Position numbers and translations under genes: made by a program. Shown piece by piece: positions 2,519 to 16,137 of a stretch of 64,000 nucleotides of DNA. The notes beneath the pieces are model-generated. The model was not told the origin of the DNA and searched no databases. It saw nothing but the letters and a program-made list of their open reading frames with translations. Position 1 is the stretch's first letter. Every line of letters begins with the position of its first letter. The DNA is taken from assembly GCF_012720115.1 (NCBI RefSeq), contig NZ_VNWN01000004.1:310001-374000 (forward strand), in the 5' to 3' direction. The DNA comes from Sneathiella chinensis. Its GTDB lineage: Bacteria > Pseudomonadota > Alphaproteobacteria > Sneathiellales > Sneathiellaceae.

Positions 2519-3073
2519 TCAGGCTGGGTCCTGATCGTCCTGCTGCTGCAGGCGGGTCGCCTGACGGAAGATTTTCTCCATCAGGTGGTTCAGGGTCTGG
2601 TATTCCTTTTTCGACAGAGCCGACAGGATCGCGGCCTCCCTCTCGCGGGCGAGGGGGATGATCTGGTTATAGACAGCCGTTCCCTGATCGGTCAGGTGCA
2701 GGGTCTTCTGGCGCCGGTCCGCACTATTTGTATGGGCGGACACCAGTCCGGCCTGCCGCAACCTGTTCACAGCCCGGCTGACAGTCATTTTTTCCATGCT
2801 GGTAATCCGGCCAAGCTCCGTTCCTGAAAGCGGCTGGTGATTGCCAAGCGCGGCAAGGATGCGCCATTCGTGCCGGGTCAGGTGGAACCGATCCGCATAA
2901 AGTTCGGACAGGGCCTTGCTGACGGCGATATTCAGGATCGACAGGCGATAGGGAAGGAAGGTGGCAAGATCAAGGGGCTGGTCACTGTCCGGGGCGGGGT
3001 TGGCTGAAATGTCCCAACTGTCTTCGGCGGGGGACCAGATGTCCCGGATATGTGTGCGGTCAGGTTTTGTCAT
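2519..3073 (-). CDS. MarR-family transcriptional regulator of the tyrosine operon
   Basis: This is a winged-helix MarR regulator of 184 residues. The core LTRHEWRILAALGNHQPLSG, then TSMEKMTVSRAVNRLRQAGLV (recognition helix) and DRRQKTLHLTDQG (wing), are diagnostic. It is divergent from the VOC-hppD-fumarylacetoacetase-maiA operon, and a perfect inverted repeat lies in the promoter between them. It probably represses that operon and responds to an aromatic intermediate; this is inference from position. I prefer the ATG giving MTKPDRTHIRD. A longer reading starting near 3202 would run through the promoter and operator and is unlikely. Confidence 0.88.
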   Translation of the reverse strand: MTKPDRTHIRDIWSPAEDSWDISANPAPDSDQPLDLATFLPYRLSILNIAVSKALSELYADRFHLTRHEWRILAALGNHQPLSGTELGRITSMEKMTVSRAVNRLRQAGLVSAHTNSADRRQKTLHLTDQGTAVYNQIIPLAREREAAILSALSKKEYQTLNHLMEKIFRQATRLQQQDDQDPA

Positions 3074-3176
3074 GTCAGTCCCGGTGCCCGAAATTTCTTG
3101 CGCCCTTTGTAGCGTGAACCGGCCCTTTGTGAAAGACCGGTCTGCGGGCGACCGCAGGAGGGAATTCCCTTCCCGA

Positions 3177-3205
3177 TTGACAATAGTAACATTTGTTACC
3201 AATAT
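3177..3205 (+). promoter_or_regulatory. Promoter of the tyrosine operon with embedded MarR operator
   Basis: A perfect -35 hexamer TTGACA (3177-3182) is followed by a 17-base spacer and a -10-like CAATAT (3200-3205). The spacer holds the inverted repeat GTAAC-ATTT-GTTAC (3186-3199). Binding there would block RNA polymerase directly. The site lies between the MarR gene and its presumed target operon. The -10 element is weak, and operator function is inferred. Confidence 0.65.
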
Positions 3206-3263
3206 GACAAGAGCTGCCCTCCCCGAAACAGGACGGGCCGTGGCAGCGATGGAGGAGCGCCTT

Positions 3264-3797
3264 ATGAAAATTGGGAAAATTCATCACGTCGCCTACCGGT
3301 GTCGGAATGCCAAGCAGACTGTGGAATGGTATCAGAAGTATCTGGGTATGGATTTTGTTCTCGCCATCGCCGAGAACGAGGTTCCCTCGACAAAGGCGCC
3401 TGACCCTTACATGCATATTTTCATGGATGCGGGGCAGGGCAATGTTCTGGCCTTTTTTGAACTGCCCAACTCCCCCGAAATGGGAAAAGACCCGAACACA
3501 CCGGACTGGGTGCAGCATATTGCCTTTGAAATTGACAGTCTGGACGATCTTCTGGCCACCAAGGCCCGTCTGGAGGCGGACGGGATTGATGTTGTCGGCC
3601 CGACAGATCACACTATCTTCAAATCTATCTACTTCTTTGATCCCAGCGGTCATCGGCTGGAACTTGCGGTGAATACCGGCACACCGGACATGGCCCGCCG
3701 ACTGGACGATGTGAAATGGCAGATGCTGGAAGAATGGGACCGCACCAAGCAGGCCCCGCAACATGCGGCCTGGATGCATGACGGCAGTCATAGTTGA
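3264..3797 (+). CDS. VOC-family (glyoxalase/dioxygenase superfamily) protein
   Basis: This is a single vicinal-oxygen-chelate protein of 177 residues. It opens KIGKIHHVAYRCRNAKQT, with WVQHIAFEIDSLDD in the middle and DPSGHRLELAV near the end, which supply the usual metal-ligand positions of the fold (His early, His mid, Glu late). It is the first gene of the tyrosine operon, before hppD. The substrate cannot be read from sequence. It is not homogentisate dioxygenase, which is a cupin, although a homogentisate-oxidising activity is needed at this point of the pathway. The ATG follows GGAGGAG by six to seven bases; ATG 3249 lacks a site. Confidence 0.8.
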   Translation: MKIGKIHHVAYRCRNAKQTVEWYQKYLGMDFVLAIAENEVPSTKAPDPYMHIFMDAGQGNVLAFFELPNSPEMGKDPNTPDWVQHIAFEIDSLDDLLATKARLEADGIDVVGPTDHTIFKSIYFFDPSGHRLELAVNTGTPDMARRLDDVKWQMLEEWDRTKQAPQHAAWMHDGSHS

Positions 3798-3951
3798 TCG
3801 GCATACAGCGGATTTGAAAAGGAACGGCACATGTATCTTGTGATCGGGAGAATGCTGGAAAACAGTGTGCGGGGGGTGTCGTGTGCGCCGCCGATGAGGC
3901 CGGCTTTCCCCTTGCTTCCCTTTACAGTTATTCCAGAATGGAACCCTTCAC

Positions 3952-5049
3952 ATGACACAAGATACGACACACCCCACAGACCTTTTTGAAAATCCCATGG
4001 GCCTTGATGGCTTTGAATTTGTTGAGTTTGCCTCGCCCAAGCCGGGCATTCTGGAGCCGATCTTCGAATTGCTGGGCTTCACGAAAATCGCCGTGCACCG
4101 GTCAAAAGACGTGGTGTTGTACCGGCAGGGCGATATCAACTTCATCATCAATAACGAACCCAAAAGCCATGCCGCCTATTTCGCCGAAGAACACGGGCCA
4201 TGCGCTTGCGGTCTGGCTTTCCGGGTCCGCGATTCCCACAAGGCTTATGCCCGTGCGCTGGAACTGGGCGCACAGCCGATTGAAATTCCCACCGGGCCGA
4301 TGGAACTGCACTTGCCGGCCATCAAGGGCATTGGCGGGGCGCCCCTCTATCTGATCGACCGCTATAAGGAAGGTCAGAGCATCTACGATATCGATTTTGA
4401 ATATCTGGAAGGGGTGGACCGGAACCCGGTTGGATGCGGCTTTAAGGTTATCGATCACATGACCCATAATGTGTATCGCGGGCGCATGGATTACTGGGCA
4501 CGATTCTATGAAACTCTCTTCAATTTCAAGGAAATCCGGTATTTCGATATCAAGGGCGAATATACAGGGTTGAAATCCCGCGCCTTGACGGCGCCCGATG
4601 GGCGGATCAGAATTCCCCTGAACGAGGAGGCATCCGAAGGCACCGGCCAGATTGAGGAATTCCTGATGGCCTATAACGGCGAAGGGATCCAGCATATCGC
4701 TTTTGCCAGTGATGACCTGCTGGCCAGTTGGGACATGCTGAAGGAACGGGGGTTGGCCTTCATGACGCCGCCGCCGGATACCTATTATGAAATGCTGGAA
4801 GAACGTCTTCCCGGCCACGGGGAGCCGGCAGATGAATTGAAGAAACGCGGCATCCTTCTGGATGGCACCACCGAGGGCGGGGATTTGCGCCTGTTGTTGC
4901 AGATTTTCTCGGAAACCCTGATCGGTCCGGTATTCTTTGAATTCATCCAGCGGAAAAAGGACGACGGTTTCGGTGAGGGGAACTTCAAGGCCCTGTTTGA
5001 ATCCATGGAGCGGGACCAGATCCGGCGCGGCGTCGTCAAGGCCGAATAG
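3952..5049 (+). CDS. hppD: 4-hydroxyphenylpyruvate dioxygenase
   Basis: This iron(II) dioxygenase converts 4-hydroxyphenylpyruvate to homogentisate in tyrosine degradation. At 365 residues it has the bacterial length. The three iron ligands are visible: H169 in [13 protein letters not shown]248 in [11 protein letters not shown] and E330 in FFEFIQRK, with the C-terminal gate helix [20 protein letters not shown]. It lies 154 bases after the VOC gene and 54 bases before the fumarylacetoacetase gene, in one operon. The ribosome site before the ATG is poor (GGAAC about eight bases upstream). Function is very likely; regulation by the divergent MarR protein is inferred. Confidence 0.96.
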
Positions 5050-5103
5050 AGGGGGGCGGCATGCCTTCTGATACGGGAATAAACGGAGAACTTGGATAAC
5101 GGA

Positions 5104-6405
5104 ATGACCACATATTACAAAACACAAGATCCGTCCCTGAAAAGCTGGGTGAAAAGCGCCAATGGGCCGGAATGCCCGTTTCCCATCCAGAACCTGCCTT
5201 ACGGGGCTTTTTCAACGGCGGCAAATCCCGCCCCCCGCATCGGTGTGGCGATCGGGGACCATGTGCTGGATTTGTCCGTTCTTGAAAAGGCGGGCCTGTT
5301 GCCCCAATCGGAAGGCTGTTTTTCGGCGCCGGTCCTGAACGGGTTCATGGGGCTGGGGGCGGCGGTCTGGTCGGACACGCGGGCCACCATCAGCGCCCTT
5401 CTTGAAAAGGAGAACAGCCGCCTTCGCGATGACAGTGCCTTGCGGGCCGGGGCATTGGTCCCCCTGTCCGATGTGACCCTGCATATGCCGGTGCAGGTGG
5501 GGGACTTTACGGATTTCTATGCGTCGCGGGAACATGCCACCAATGTGGGGACCATGTTCCGGGACCCGGAAAATGCGTTGATGCCCAACTGGCTGCATAT
5601 TCCAATCGGCTATAACGGGCGGGCCAGTACGGTGGTGGTCAGCGGCACCGACATTCACCGCCCGTGTGGTCAGGTCAAGGCCCCCGATCAGGCGGCCCCG
5701 TCGTTCCGGCCCAGCGGCAAGCTGGATATGGAACTGGAAATGGGGGCCCTTGTCGGCACCGGCAATCCACTGGGACAGCCGGTGACGGTAGAGCAGGCCC
5801 GCGAGATGATTTTCGGCTATGTCCTCCTGAATGACTGGAGCGCCCGGGATATTCAGGTGTGGGAATATCAGCCCCTTGGCCCGTTTCAGGCCAAGGCCTT
5901 CGCCACCACCATATCGCCATGGGTTGTCACCGCCGAGGCGCTGGAGCCGTTCCGGGTTTCCGGACCGTCTCAGGACCCTGTCCCGCTGCCTTATTTGCAG
6001 CAGACAGCGGCCAATAACTATGATCTGAACCTGAAAGTGACGCTTCAGCCCGCAGGCGCGGCCAGCCCCGCCGCAATTTGCGAGACCAATTTCCGCTATA
6101 TGTACTGGTCCAGCCCCCAACAACTGGCCCATCACGCGTCAAGCGGCTGTGCCATGCGGCCCGGCGACCTTCTGGGGTCCGGGACCATCAGCGGGCCAAC
6201 CCCCGCTTCATGGGGCAGTTTGCTGGAACTGACCTGGAATGGCCGCGATCCACTGACCTTGCCGGAGGGCCAGACACGCACCTTTATCGAGGATGGCGAC
6301 AGCCTGACCCTAACCGGTTGGTGTCAGGGGGATGGCTATCGTATCGGCTTCGGCGAGGCGGAGGGGACCATCCTGCCCCCGGTCCCGCATCCGGCAGGGG
6401 GATAG
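5104..6405 (+). CDS. fahA: Fumarylacetoacetase
   Basis: This enzyme hydrolyses 4-fumarylacetoacetate to fumarate and acetoacetate, the last step of tyrosine breakdown. At 433 residues it matches the long FAH type. It has an N-terminal beta-barrel domain, then DFTDFYASREHATNVGTMFR, LHIPIGYNGRASTVVVSG, KLDMELEMGALVG and LLNDWSARDIQVWEYQPLGP, which include the metal-binding acidic residues and the catalytic His region. The start is uncertain: I use the ATG giving MTTYYKTQDP, but GGAG is 15 bases away and only three bases before an in-frame TTG at 5092. Only three bases separate its stop from maiA. Confidence 0.94.
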   Translation: MTTYYKTQDPSLKSWVKSANGPECPFPIQNLPYGAFSTAANPAPRIGVAIGDHVLDLSVLEKAGLLPQSEGCFSAPVLNGFMGLGAAVWSDTRATISALLEKENSRLRDDSALRAGALVPLSDVTLHMPVQVGDFTDFYASREHATNVGTMFRDPENALMPNWLHIPIGYNGRASTVVVSGTDIHRPCGQVKAPDQAAPSFRPSGKLDMELEMGALVGTGNPLGQPVTVEQAREMIFGYVLLNDWSARDIQVWEYQPLGPFQAKAFATTISPWVVTAEALEPFRVSGPSQDPVPLPYLQQTAANNYDLNLKVTLQPAGAASPAAICETNFRYMYWSSPQQLAHHASSGCAMRPGDLLGSGTISGPTPASWGSLLELTWNGRDPLTLPEGQTRTFIEDGDSLTLTGWCQGDGYRIGFGEAEGTILPPVPHPAGG

Positions 6406-12563: not shown

Positions 12564-14615
12564 ATGGCACTTGCTGAAAATAAAGGAAGCTGGGGACGAA
12601 AGCGGGATAGCGGGACCAGGGAAGTCTTGCGGGACCGCTACAGGATTTTTCTGTCCAGCCCGATCCCGCATATGGATAGCGGCGAGAATCGCGCCTATCA
12701 GGTGGAGGATCTGCGCGACCCTGTCTCGCGTCTGTATGCCATTGTTGTGGACCCTTCCATACCGTATCGCGATGAAATGGCTCAGCGGATGACCTCGCGC
12801 AGTGTGTCGGGCATCCTTGAACTGCATGCCCACGGGGTGGTTCAGTTTGACGATACGGACTATCGGTATGTGTTTGTTTTTGACCAACCCCTGCATGGGC
12901 GGGCCTTTTCGGAAGGCACCCCGCTGACCGAGCAGGAGGTTCTTGGCAAGATCGTCCCGCGTCTGATCGATACCATCACCGATTTGCACAGCCGGGGACT
13001 GGCCCACCGGGGCATCCGCGCTGATAATCTGTTCTTACGCGAAAAGGGCCGTCTTGGGCTGGTACTGGGAGAGGCGGTTACAAACCCGGCAGGGTCCTTG
13101 CAGCCGGCGGTTTATGAGCCTTTGGAATCGGCCAACGCCATGCCCCATGGACGCGGGGAATTGAACCCGGCGGCCGATGTGTATGCGTTGGGTGTTCTGA
13201 TTGTGCATCTTCTGGGCGGGGTGTTGCCCGGTCAGGGACGGCAGGCCGTGGACCTTTACAAGGCCAAGCTGCAGCAGGGCACCTATGCGGTGCTGGTCCC
13301 GAAAATCCAGGCTTCCAGCCGGGCCGGTTTCCTGCTGGCCGGGTTGCTGAACGACGATATTACCCGCCGCTGGAATCTTGAGGTCCTGAAGCGATGGCGG
13401 GATGGGGTCTATGAACGGCCCCGCCCCGGTTTCGGCGACCGTCGGGCGCCGGGCCCGATTGCTTTTGATGATCAGGAATTTGTCTCGCCCCGTCTGTTGG
13501 CGCAGGCCCTGACGGAACGTCCGTCCCTTGGCTACAGCATTCTTGAGAACGGCAAGCTGGAAAGCTGGGTTCGCAACTCCCTCAATGACAAGGAGGCCGC
13601 CGTTCGCATTGGCGAAATCCTGACCAGGTCAACCGGGTTGACGCGGGGAATGCGGCGCAATGAAATTCAGGCGATCTCTCGGGCAGCGGCCATTCTCGAT
13701 CATCAGGGGGCCCTGTGGTATCGCGATATTACCTTTTCCCGCGGGGGGATGGGCAGTTTGCTGGCCTATGGCTTTCGCAAGGGCGGAGCGCTGAAAAACA
13801 CCCTTGCCGAACTGCTGGAAAGCGGCCTTCTTCCCGATGTGGTGTTTACGGACCAGAACCGTATGACCAAGGAAAAGAAGAAGGAAGACAGCTGGATGAA
13901 AATCGGCGCGGCGGCCGATTGTTTCGAATATATGGAAAAATGGAAGCATCTGGGCTTTGGCCTGGAACGCTGCCTGTATGAACTGAACCCCACGTTATCC
14001 TGTCTCAGTCCGTCGCTGGACGGGGCCTATGTCAGGGATGTGGGGCAGTTGCTGGAGATACTGGAGACCAAGGCCCTGCAGATGGATGGAAAAATCAATC
14101 CGTTTGATAGGCATATTGCGGCCTTTGTCGCGGCCCGCACCCGCAGTGTCTCGAAGCATTTCTCGCGTCTGGCCGCACTGCCGCAGGGCAGCATTGATTA
14201 CACCATTTCCCTGCTGAACCTGTTTGCCCGCCTGCAGAACCTTCTGAAGCCGGGGCCGCTCCCCGGGTTGAGCCTGTGGTTCGGGCAGGCGATCGAGCCG
14301 CTGATCCAGAAAATCCATTCGGAAATGCGGCGAGAACTGGTCCGGGCGAAATATGAGCGGGTCAAGGATTCCGGCAATCTGGAGAAAATCCTGATCGAAC
14401 TGGACCTGAAGAACCACATCATTCGGGATGCCAGTGAATATGATCAGGCGATCAAGGCCTTCATTGCCGTTGATAACGGGATTGAGGCACTGGAAAAAGG
14501 GAGTGATTACCGAAAACTGGCGGCCCAGAAATATGGTCACTGGATTGCCTCCGTTCTGTCCATCAGCGTCCTGTTTGCCAGCATGGGGCTGTCCTACATG
14601 TATTTCATACGGTGA
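12564..14615 (+). CDS. Tail-anchored protein-kinase-like pseudokinase
   Basis: This 683-residue protein has a Ser/Thr-kinase-like fold over about residues 25-280 but has lost its chemistry. The VAIK lysine region reads YAIVV (no Lys), HRD reads H148-R149-G150, and DFG is replaced by LGE near 169-171. The kinase-like C-lobe ADVYALGVLIVHLLGG remains recognisable. A long helical region of unknown function follows (about 290-650), and one membrane segment ends the protein (WIASVLSISVLFASMG), so the bulk should face the cytosol. The next gene, a small membrane protein, starts four bases later. The start is uncertain: the ATG has only a weak TTAGG upstream, and a TTG at 12528 is possible. Confidence 0.8.
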   Translation: MALAENKGSWGRKRDSGTREVLRDRYRIFLSSPIPHMDSGENRAYQVEDLRDPVSRLYAIVVDPSIPYRDEMAQRMTSRSVSGILELHAHGVVQFDDTDYRYVFVFDQPLHGRAFSEGTPLTEQEVLGKIVPRLIDTITDLHSRGLAHRGIRADNLFLREKGRLGLVLGEAVTNPAGSLQPAVYEPLESANAMPHGRGELNPAADVYALGVLIVHLLGGVLPGQGRQAVDLYKAKLQQGTYAVLVPKIQASSRAGFLLAGLLNDDITRRWNLEVLKRWRDGVYERPRPGFGDRRAPGPIAFDDQEFVSPRLLAQALTERPSLGYSILENGKLESWVRNSLNDKEAAVRIGEILTRSTGLTRGMRRNEIQAISRAAAILDHQGALWYRDITFSRGGMGSLLAYGFRKGGALKNTLAELLESGLLPDVVFTDQNRMTKEKKKEDSWMKIGAAADCFEYMEKWKHLGFGLERCLYELNPTLSCLSPSLDGAYVRDVGQLLEILETKALQMDGKINPFDRHIAAFVAARTRSVSKHFSRLAALPQGSIDYTISLLNLFARLQNLLKPGPLPGLSLWFGQAIEPLIQKIHSEMRRELVRAKYERVKDSGNLEKILIELDLKNHIIRDASEYDQAIKAFIAVDNGIEALEKGSDYRKLAAQKYGHWIASVLSISVLFASMGLSYMYFIR

Positions 14616-14619
14616 TGTG

Positions 14620-15150
14620 ATGTCCAAGACAGCGACAAGGAAATCCGGGAACGGCCTGTTTCCCATACTGGTCTTCACTGGCCTGTGTTCGGTTTTTGCG
14701 CCGCCGACCATGTTGATCATTGGGGTGGGCATGTTGCCGACCCTGGTGGCGGCGCTGGCCCGTCCGGGCGGCGTGCGGGGCAGCATTGCCGCCATGCTGG
14801 CGCTCAATCTGGCGGGGGTTATTCCTGTGGTGGGGATGCTGTGGCGCTGGGGTCATACGCTGGAAAATGCCATTTCACTGCTGACCGATGTGTTCATGTG
14901 GTTGCTCATGTTTGGCGGGGCCGGGGTGGCGGCCTTCCTATTGTGGGGGGTGCCGATCCTTGTGCATGCCGCCTATGAGGTGCAGGCCCAGACCATGATC
15001 AAGCGACTGGAAAAACGGCGTATCAAGCTGATCGAGGAATGGGGCGGCCAGATCATCGAGGATGCCAAATATGGCGCCGGTCGGAAACGCCCTTCCGGGG
15101 ATGATGAAGAGGCAGGCGAGGAGCCTGATCTGGTGGCCGAGGAGATCTAG
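14620..15150 (+). CDS. Small multi-pass membrane protein, partner of the pseudokinase
   Basis: This is an unrecognised protein of 176 residues. Three hydrophobic stretches, at about residues 13-45, 54-75 and 84-118, are followed by a charged tail (KRLEKRRIKLIEEWGGQIIE) and an acidic end, probably cytosolic. The ATG comes four bases after the stop of the pseudokinase gene, inside GGTGATG, so the two are very likely translated together and may form one membrane complex. A strong terminator follows. No enzyme motif is visible and I assign no function. Confidence 0.8.
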   Translation: MSKTATRKSGNGLFPILVFTGLCSVFAPPTMLIIGVGMLPTLVAALARPGGVRGSIAAMLALNLAGVIPVVGMLWRWGHTLENAISLLTDVFMWLLMFGGAGVAAFLLWGVPILVHAAYEVQAQTMIKRLEKRRIKLIEEWGGQIIEDAKYGAGRKRPSGDDEEAGEEPDLVAEEI

Positions 15151-15173: not shown

Positions 15174-15205
15174 AAAAAAAGCCCGGCATCTGACCGGGCT
15201 TTTTT
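15174..15205. terminator. Bidirectional rho-independent terminator
   Basis: A seven-A run, then GCCCGG-N7-CCGGGC, then six T residues. It separates the convergent pseudokinase operon and rpoH and can act in both directions. Confidence 0.88.
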
Positions 15206-15258: not shown

Positions 15259-16137
15259 TCAGTTGATATGCTGTTCGATGGCTCTGGCCTTCACGGCCTT
15301 TTGCAGTTTCTCGAATGCCCGGACCTCAATCTGGCGGACCCGCTCGCGACTGATGTTGTAATGCTGGCTCAATTCTTCCAGCGTCAGCGGTTCATCGCGC
15401 AGACGACGTTCCGTCAGGATATGACGTTCCCGGTCGTTCAGCTTGTCCATGGCGCCGGCAAGCAGGGCGCGGCGGTTCTTCAGTTCCTGATTTTCCGCGT
15501 AAACGGTTTCCTGATCCGGCGCGTCATCTTCCAGCCAGTCCATCCATTCGCCTTCGCTGTCGGCGCGCATGGGGGAGTTCAGGCTGTGATCCGGCGCGGT
15601 CAGGCGGCGGTTCATGTTGATAACCTCGGTTTCGGAAACCCCCAGCTTTTCGGAAATGGACTTCACCTGTTCGTGGGTCATGTCCCCATCGTCAATGGCC
15701 TGAATCTGGCCCTTGATCTTGCGCAGGTTGAAGAACAGCTTCTTCTGGGCGGCGGTTGTCCCCATCTTGACCAGTGACCAGGTCCGCAGGATATATTCCT
15801 GAATGGAGGCCCGGATCCACCACATGGCATAGGTGGACAGGCGGAACCCTTTTTCAGGTTCGAACCGCTTGACCGCCTGCATCATACCAACGTTACCCTC
15901 GGCGATCAGTTCCCCGACGGGAAGACCATAGCCGCGGTACCCCATGGCGATTTTGGCGACGAGACGAAGATGGCTTGTGACCAGTTTGTGGGCAGCTTCG
16001 GAATCCTGACGGTCCTTCCATGCGGTCGCCAGCATATATTCCTCTTCCGGCTCCAGCATGGGGAATTTGCGGATTTCCTGCAAATAGCGGGACAAGCCCC
16101 CCTCTGGTGTTACTGTCGGCAAAGACGTATTGCTCAT
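15259..16137 (-). CDS. rpoH: RNA polymerase heat-shock sigma factor (sigma-32)
   Basis: This is an alternative sigma factor of 292 residues for heat-shock promoters. Region 2 is seen as LRLVAKIAMGYRGYGLPVGE and FRLSTYAMWWIRASIQEYIL (-10 recognition). The RpoH-specific box QKKLFFNLRKIK follows, then region 3 and region 4 with EELSQHYNISRERVRQIEVR (-35 recognition). It lies downstream of rluD on the same strand with a 110-base gap that carries a perfect inverted repeat. An hsp20 gene in this same window is a plausible target. Confidence 0.97.
   Translation of the reverse strand: MSNTSLPTVTPEGGLSRYLQEIRKFPMLEPEEEYMLATAWKDRQDSEAAHKLVTSHLRLVAKIAMGYRGYGLPVGELIAEGNVGMMQAVKRFEPEKGFRLSTYAMWWIRASIQEYILRTWSLVKMGTTAAQKKLFFNLRKIKGQIQAIDDGDMTHEQVKSISEKLGVSETEVINMNRRLTAPDHSLNSPMRADSEGEWMDWLEDDAPDQETVYAENQELKNRRALLAGAMDKLNDRERHILTERRLRDEPLTLEELSQHYNISRERVRQIEVRAFEKLQKAVKARAIEQHIN

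Follow-up and report, generated by a model that had tools for sequence, protein, structure and literature searches.

A putative membrane-tethered pseudokinase and its conserved membrane partner in Alphaproteobacteria

P0001 and P0002, the products of two adjacent genes in a window of alphaproteobacterial DNA (the whole stretch of 64,000 nucleotides that was analysed), look like an old membrane signalling or scaffold unit, unstudied so far. In the reading favoured here, which is given a probability of roughly 0.6, P0001, tethered to the membrane and unable to transfer phosphate, serves as a scaffold or allosteric relay that works via P0002 in an obligate complex. P0001 would be barred from ordinary phosphotransfer, having no catalytic aspartate, ATP-binding lysine or glycine-rich loop, and probably lies on the cytosolic side of the membrane, tethered by its C-terminal helix; it would keep the scaffold of the kinase C-lobe and add to it a helical part that appears largely unique to the family. 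P0002 would be its dedicated multi-pass membrane partner, with a charged and probably cytosolic tail that bears the EEWG motif. The two proteins are proposed to interact physically in an obligate membrane complex, within which the partner's most likely task is to sense or hold a client or a state of the membrane; together with its helical arm, the pseudokinase may relay to, or scaffold, a soluble client.

The original prediction, made from the letters of the DNA, was of an undescribed membrane signalling or scaffold pair. The evidence supports this reading best, once two points are changed: the nearest relatives can be identified (proteins of the DLHK type and the kinase L223, both described below), and the active site retains its metal-binding half. 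Little of bacterial pseudokinase biology has been explored, and for most described families only the domain is known, with neither partners nor genetic context. The P0001 family offers a tractable case for the study of how a kinase fold can turn into a non-catalytic membrane component, with a partner in each genome sampled, a long-stable position in the gene order, a deep alignment, a confident model and relatives that bear the catalytic residues.

Conservation and setting of the gene pair

The source genome is alphaproteobacterial and 3.5 Mb in size, and among the named genomes of the collections a Sneathiellales MAG comes closest, with 65% identity. P0001 has 683 residues, its ORF running from an ATG to a TGA stop at 14613-14615, and P0002 has 176. 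That P0002 starts four bases after the P0001 stop, as originally stated, is confirmed by the ORF coordinates (TGA, TGTG, ATG). Neither ORF is due to chance, because both are conserved across the class. The features of the locus are collected in Table 1.

Table 1. Features of the P0001/P0002 locus (positions in the window)
Feature	Position	Strand	Remark
P0001 pseudokinase gene	12564..14615	+	kinase domain, helical C-terminal part, one C-terminal membrane helix
Kinase-fold domain, residues 21-283	12624..13412	+	N-lobe 21-110, C-lobe 111-283
Degenerate catalytic loop HRGIRADN, residues 148-155	13005..13028	+	Gly150 for HRD Asp, Asn155 kept
LGE, residues 168-170	13065..13073	+	register of kinase LGDFG; Glu170 at DFG-Asp position
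Helical modules, residues 284-463	13413..13952	+	first ~110 residues common to DLHK-type kinase-helicase proteins and L223
Family-specific core, residues 464-560	13953..14243	+	GxGxERCLYELNPxxPCxSP ... DRHIAAF
C-terminal membrane helix of P0001, residues 660-682	14541..14609	+	
P0002 partner gene	14620..15150	+	176-aa multi-helix membrane protein
EEWG motif, P0002 residues 139-142	15034..15045	+	in charged C-terminal tail
Intrinsic terminator-like hairpin	15175..15205	+	3' of the pair, before convergent rpoH; pattern match only
rpoH-like sigma factor	15259..16137	-	ancestral right-hand neighbour of the pair

A search for homologous pairs in the same order found them class-wide. Strong matches to the pseudokinase occur in 128 of 386 alphaproteobacterial genomes, and all 128 also encode the partner; in a phylum-wide sample, full-length pseudokinase matches were confined to Alphaproteobacteria. 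A single genome (G054) has the partner only, and there a contig end cuts the locus beside rpoH. Of the 18 near-complete genomes of the order, all have the pseudokinase and 17 have the partner. The partner lies within 600 bp in 96 of the 104 kinase genes examined, usually at a short distance (median gap 28 bp), and the remaining eight lie at contig ends, belong to unlinked pairs or are extra paralogues, of which there are four. The pair anticipated by the original prediction is thus a conserved one.

The usual site of the pair is between purA and rpoH, an order that is identical in Azospirillum thermophilum. Across 83 loci, purA is directly upstream in 33, and in 38 rpoH follows downstream in the opposite orientation, with hisZ and rluD farther out at the purA-rpoH loci. 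The left flank differs in the window; rpoH, rluD, a JAB protein and threonine aldolase are still there. Since the gene order here is old, adjacency by itself counts for little, and P0001 and P0002 might be functionally independent neighbours, vertically inherited and held together by the stable purA-rpoH order. This is very improbable in view of their joint presence and absence over the 386 genomes, their tandem duplication as pairs, and their co-retention in three genomes (G309, G229 and G345) where both are present though apart or on different contigs. Joint absence extends to two loci in genomes lacking the pair (L205 and L206), at which purA and rpoH are direct neighbours.

The absence of the pair from purA-rpoH in some genomes reads as loss from an ancestral site; alternatively, the pair may have been acquired later in another part of the class. 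No remnant of the pair was found in lineages that lack it, the purA-rpoH interval being either closed, as in L205 and L206, or occupied by unrelated genes. At three loci (L203, L204 and L214) the slot is filled by an unrelated membrane protein (MADYYPLL...) that has no Pfam family.

Two observations weigh against an obligate complex. The four extra pseudokinase paralogues (L157, L158, L253 and L255) have no adjacent partner, and inter-protein co-variation between P0001 and P0002 gave no interface signal above that of shuffled pairing. In genomes with several pairs, divergence is better correlated between adjacent partners than between swapped ones, with 110 of 9216 within-genome swaps reaching the observed correlation, a figure that overstates the strength of the effect, since three of the genomes tested belong to a single genus and one locus was counted twice; it is taken as supportive, not strong, evidence that partners have diverged together. 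An early hint that residues 561-630 form a co-varying interface with the EEWG tail was gone once the residues were mapped properly.

The kinase domain and its lost residues

P0001 belongs to the kinase fold by its PF00069 match, which scores 32.6 bits against the Pfam cut-off of 31.7, and its sequence matches in the PDB are ordinary kinases, over about residues 115-285. The AlphaFold2 model, for which the input alignment held 102 homologues with plasmid-derived rows left out, has a mean pLDDT of 93.9 and a pTM of 0.88, and Foldseek searches with it retrieve kinases, for example M. tuberculosis PknB, with TM-scores by target length of about 0.65-0.70. As modelled, the kinase domain is a real kinase fold. 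Azospirillum relatives of P0001 bear the plain annotation ‘serine/threonine protein kinase’, which is misleading. At two loci of one genome (L023 and L025 in G011) the pseudokinase is broken in two past the kinase domain, near residue 355, through either a sequencing error or a true split of the ORF.

The original claim that P0001 lacks the ATP lysine and the HRD aspartate is upheld. Val61 occupies the position of the beta-3 lysine, which is absent in 103 of 105 homologues, and Gly150 occupies that of the HRD aspartate, which is lost in 104 of 105 and replaced mostly by Ala, Gly, Asn or Ser. P0001 also has no glycine-rich loop, and no equivalent of the beta-3 lysine was found in it. The DFG aspartate had been reported as missing too; letter by letter this is correct, but the register was wrong. 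The P0001 segment is LGEAV, the family motif LG[E/D]C corresponds to the LGDFG of kinases, and two alignments, one with L223 (IADFG) and one with DLHK proteins (ICGFG), set Glu170 on the DFG aspartate. The residue is acidic in 96 of the 105 homologues (Glu 62, Asp 34). The metal-binding Asn155 of the catalytic loop is kept in 101, as is Arg69, and Arg152 is kept in 88. Intact residues at shifted positions, which would count against the pseudokinase assignment, therefore exist in part: there is an acidic residue at the DFG-Asp position and Asn155 is kept, but the ATP lysine and the HRD aspartate are gone. As judged from these alignments, the active site has largely conserved its metal-binding half and has lost the base and the ATP anchor.

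With Val61, Gly150 and Glu170 at the decisive positions, P0001 does not have the residues of an active Ser/Thr kinase. It is highly improbable that it is one with displaced catalytic residues. The beta-3 lysine can move, as in the WNK kinases, which sets a precedent, and a few homologues retain one of the residues, L155 and L156 only the VAIK-type lysine and L100 only the HRD aspartate. Against this, the members with the lysine lack the HRD aspartate and the reverse, and the VAIK lysine, HRD aspartate and DFG aspartate occur together in none of the 105. In contrast to the catalytic residues, Asp205 of the alpha-F motif DxYALG is kept in 105 of 105, and Gly210 and Arg269, which also determine the fold, are strictly kept. 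Since catalytic residues have been lost and fold-determining and family-specific residues strictly retained, selection appears to have acted for something other than phosphotransfer.

A pure scaffold would have no need of Asn155 and an acidic residue at position 170, both kept in most members, and these allow metal or nucleotide binding. As their retention is left unexplained by scaffolding, the chief alternative to the favoured reading is a switch that depends on nucleotide or metal. P0001 would bind Mg-nucleotide via Asn155, Glu170, Arg69 and Arg152 without transferring phosphate, and its nucleotide state would control the membrane partner. The conservation of all four positions speaks for such a switch, as does the modelling of DLHK relatives, which lack the beta-3 lysine, with arginine-based ATP binding that includes one arginine in the catalytic loop (PMC12599244). 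The missing glycine-rich loop and lysine speak against it, and the switch is considered possible, though on the unlikely side.

Relation to known pseudokinase families

Scans of P0001 and P0002 against Pfam, NCBIfam and PADLOC named only the kinase fold. The families ActPs1-3, DLHK, GLW, CP1 and DYD are outlined in a 2025 review of bacterial pseudokinases (PMC12599244), and the motifs of the P0001 family were set against the DLHK, GLW and ActPs3 motifs given there. By this comparison of motifs the family lies outside all three; ActPs1, ActPs2, CP1 and DYD were considered in outline. The P0001 family may be an unnamed member of the 42-family bacterial kinase atlas.

DLHK proteins keep the HRD aspartate, have GFG for DFG and no membrane region, and often carry helicase or DNA2 domains, an example being P. 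aeruginosa Q9I0B5 (O'Boyle et al. 2025, PMC12599244). Four kinase-helicase-nuclease proteins of this type (L224-L227) were found among the relatives of P0001, and L224-L226 bear the published signature of AVLT, HRDLRP and GFG. The two families have in common the absence of the beta-3 lysine, an arginine at the HRDxK place, the RW...W motif and the next module of ~110 residues. Only DLHK proteins have the HRD aspartate, GFG, and helicase and nuclease domains, with no membrane helix, whereas only the P0001 family has lost the HRD aspartate and has LG[E/D]C, a membrane anchor and a dedicated partner. P0001 itself, with HRG and LGE, a C-terminal membrane helix and no helicase domain, is not a DLHK protein.

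According to the same review, the GLW family has GLW in place of HRD and LLLL/W in place of the lysine motif (PMC12599244). The P0001 family shares with it only a C-terminal membrane region and has instead FALV and, in most of the 105 homologues, HR[A/G/N/S]. ActPs3 (MviN) is given there as VALT / Lsidhpsr / DFG missing and as mainly actinobacterial (PMC12599244), and P0001 differs from it in both motifs and taxon. MviN/ActPs3 and EssB/YukC are membrane-linked bacterial pseudokinases with scaffold roles, and P0001 would resemble them in working principle only; they belong to other phyla, have another domain order and have motifs that degraded differently.

The top score outside Alphaproteobacteria, 114 bits over the family profile, belongs to L223, an 879-residue kinase from another class of the phylum (G413, 2991-5627, minus strand). 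It resembles P0001 in the order of kinase and modules and in being anchored C-terminally, by membrane helices. Unlike P0001, it has VILK, HRD and DFG intact, has no partner homologue beside it, and has more repeats and, by inspection, an Ig-like stretch. Its helical modules are repeated, and it was found in one of 48 genomes of its order.

P0001 residues 20-342, the kinase domain and first module, also give a weak match (39.4 bits) to MkoA, a kinase-helicase defence profile of PADLOC. P0001 differs in having no helicase part and in its housekeeping synteny rather than a defence island. A defence role was rejected, the MkoA, PD-T4-6 and mad6 matches reflecting the shared kinase fold and first module. 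Literature on the family in Azospirillum, Magnetospirillum and Gluconobacter yielded nothing usable.

The helical part, the anchor and the partner

The 400-residue helical part of P0001 (residues 284-683) is modelled confidently on its own, with a pLDDT of 93.6. It had been described as belonging to no known family, which the searches bear out. No Pfam family was found across all 102 C-terminal parts, save scattered chance matches in one or two members, a PDB profile search gave no significant match, and the best results of a PDB fold search were a Foldseek E of 1.2 and a VIA-align Z of 5.0. Its first ~110 residues, which open with the RW...W motif where the kinase domain ends, are common to L223 and L224-L227. 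It is the unbroken alignment across the kinase domain that supports this link, because the C-terminal profile alone scores only L226 and L227 among these proteins (with E of about 1e-3 and 3e-4 in a search of 4272 ORFs). Designed armadillo and coiled-coil proteins of the PDB, which appeared with marginal E-values in sequence-profile searches, were rejected as helical compositional matches.

The best-conserved stretch outside the kinase domain is family-specific and comprises the two motifs listed for the core in Table 1. Tyr472 and Cys480 are invariant in 105 of 105 homologues, Asp515 is kept in 103 and His517 in 99, and Glu468 and Arg469 are near-invariant. The core may form a site for a ligand, a metal or catalysis, and its fold has no known match. 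One could imagine a class-wide membrane sensory module in which the metal- or nucleotide-binding half-site of Asn155, Glu/Asp170, Arg69 and Arg152 acts as a switch and the helical domain with Tyr472, Cys480, Asp515 and His517 provides a catalytic or redox/metal-sensing output under the control of an obligate multi-pass partner, a proposal that we regard as fairly unlikely.

It is distinctly unlikely that P0001 is a non-canonical enzyme, in which the kinase fold or the C480/D515/H517 core runs another reaction in the manner of SelO (AMPylation) or SidJ (glutamylation). The conservation of the core and of the metal-site residues would suit such an enzyme, but the conserved Cys, His and Asp may equally be structural. 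Moreover, a table in PMC12599244 gives SelO and SidJ as keeping the beta-3 lysine, and SelO-type AMPylases also a DFG-like aspartate; with the lysine absent in 103 of 105 members, the P0001 family is not of the SelO type.

To return to the membrane-tethered scaffold or relay, its anchor would be the C-terminal helix foreseen in the original prediction, which is the sole membrane helix predicted in P0001.

P0002 had been called an unrecognised three-helix protein with a charged tail. It is indeed without a family in Pfam or the PDB, and Pfam searches with all 88 partners gave only chance matches in one or two members. Hydropathy places hydrophobic stretches at about residues 15-45, 61-70 and 90-116, followed by the charged C-terminal tail. 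Since the N- and C-terminal flanks are both basic, the chain may cross the membrane an even number of times, with four passes more probable than three. Motifs of the family are GMLPT, N..GV.P and, in the cytosolic-looking tail, EEWG. Two genomes (G037 and G163) hold three extra partner copies without a pseudokinase (L234-L237). One of these, in L236, lies directly behind a 994-residue hybrid histidine kinase and a response regulator, an arrangement that fits a signalling role of the partner.
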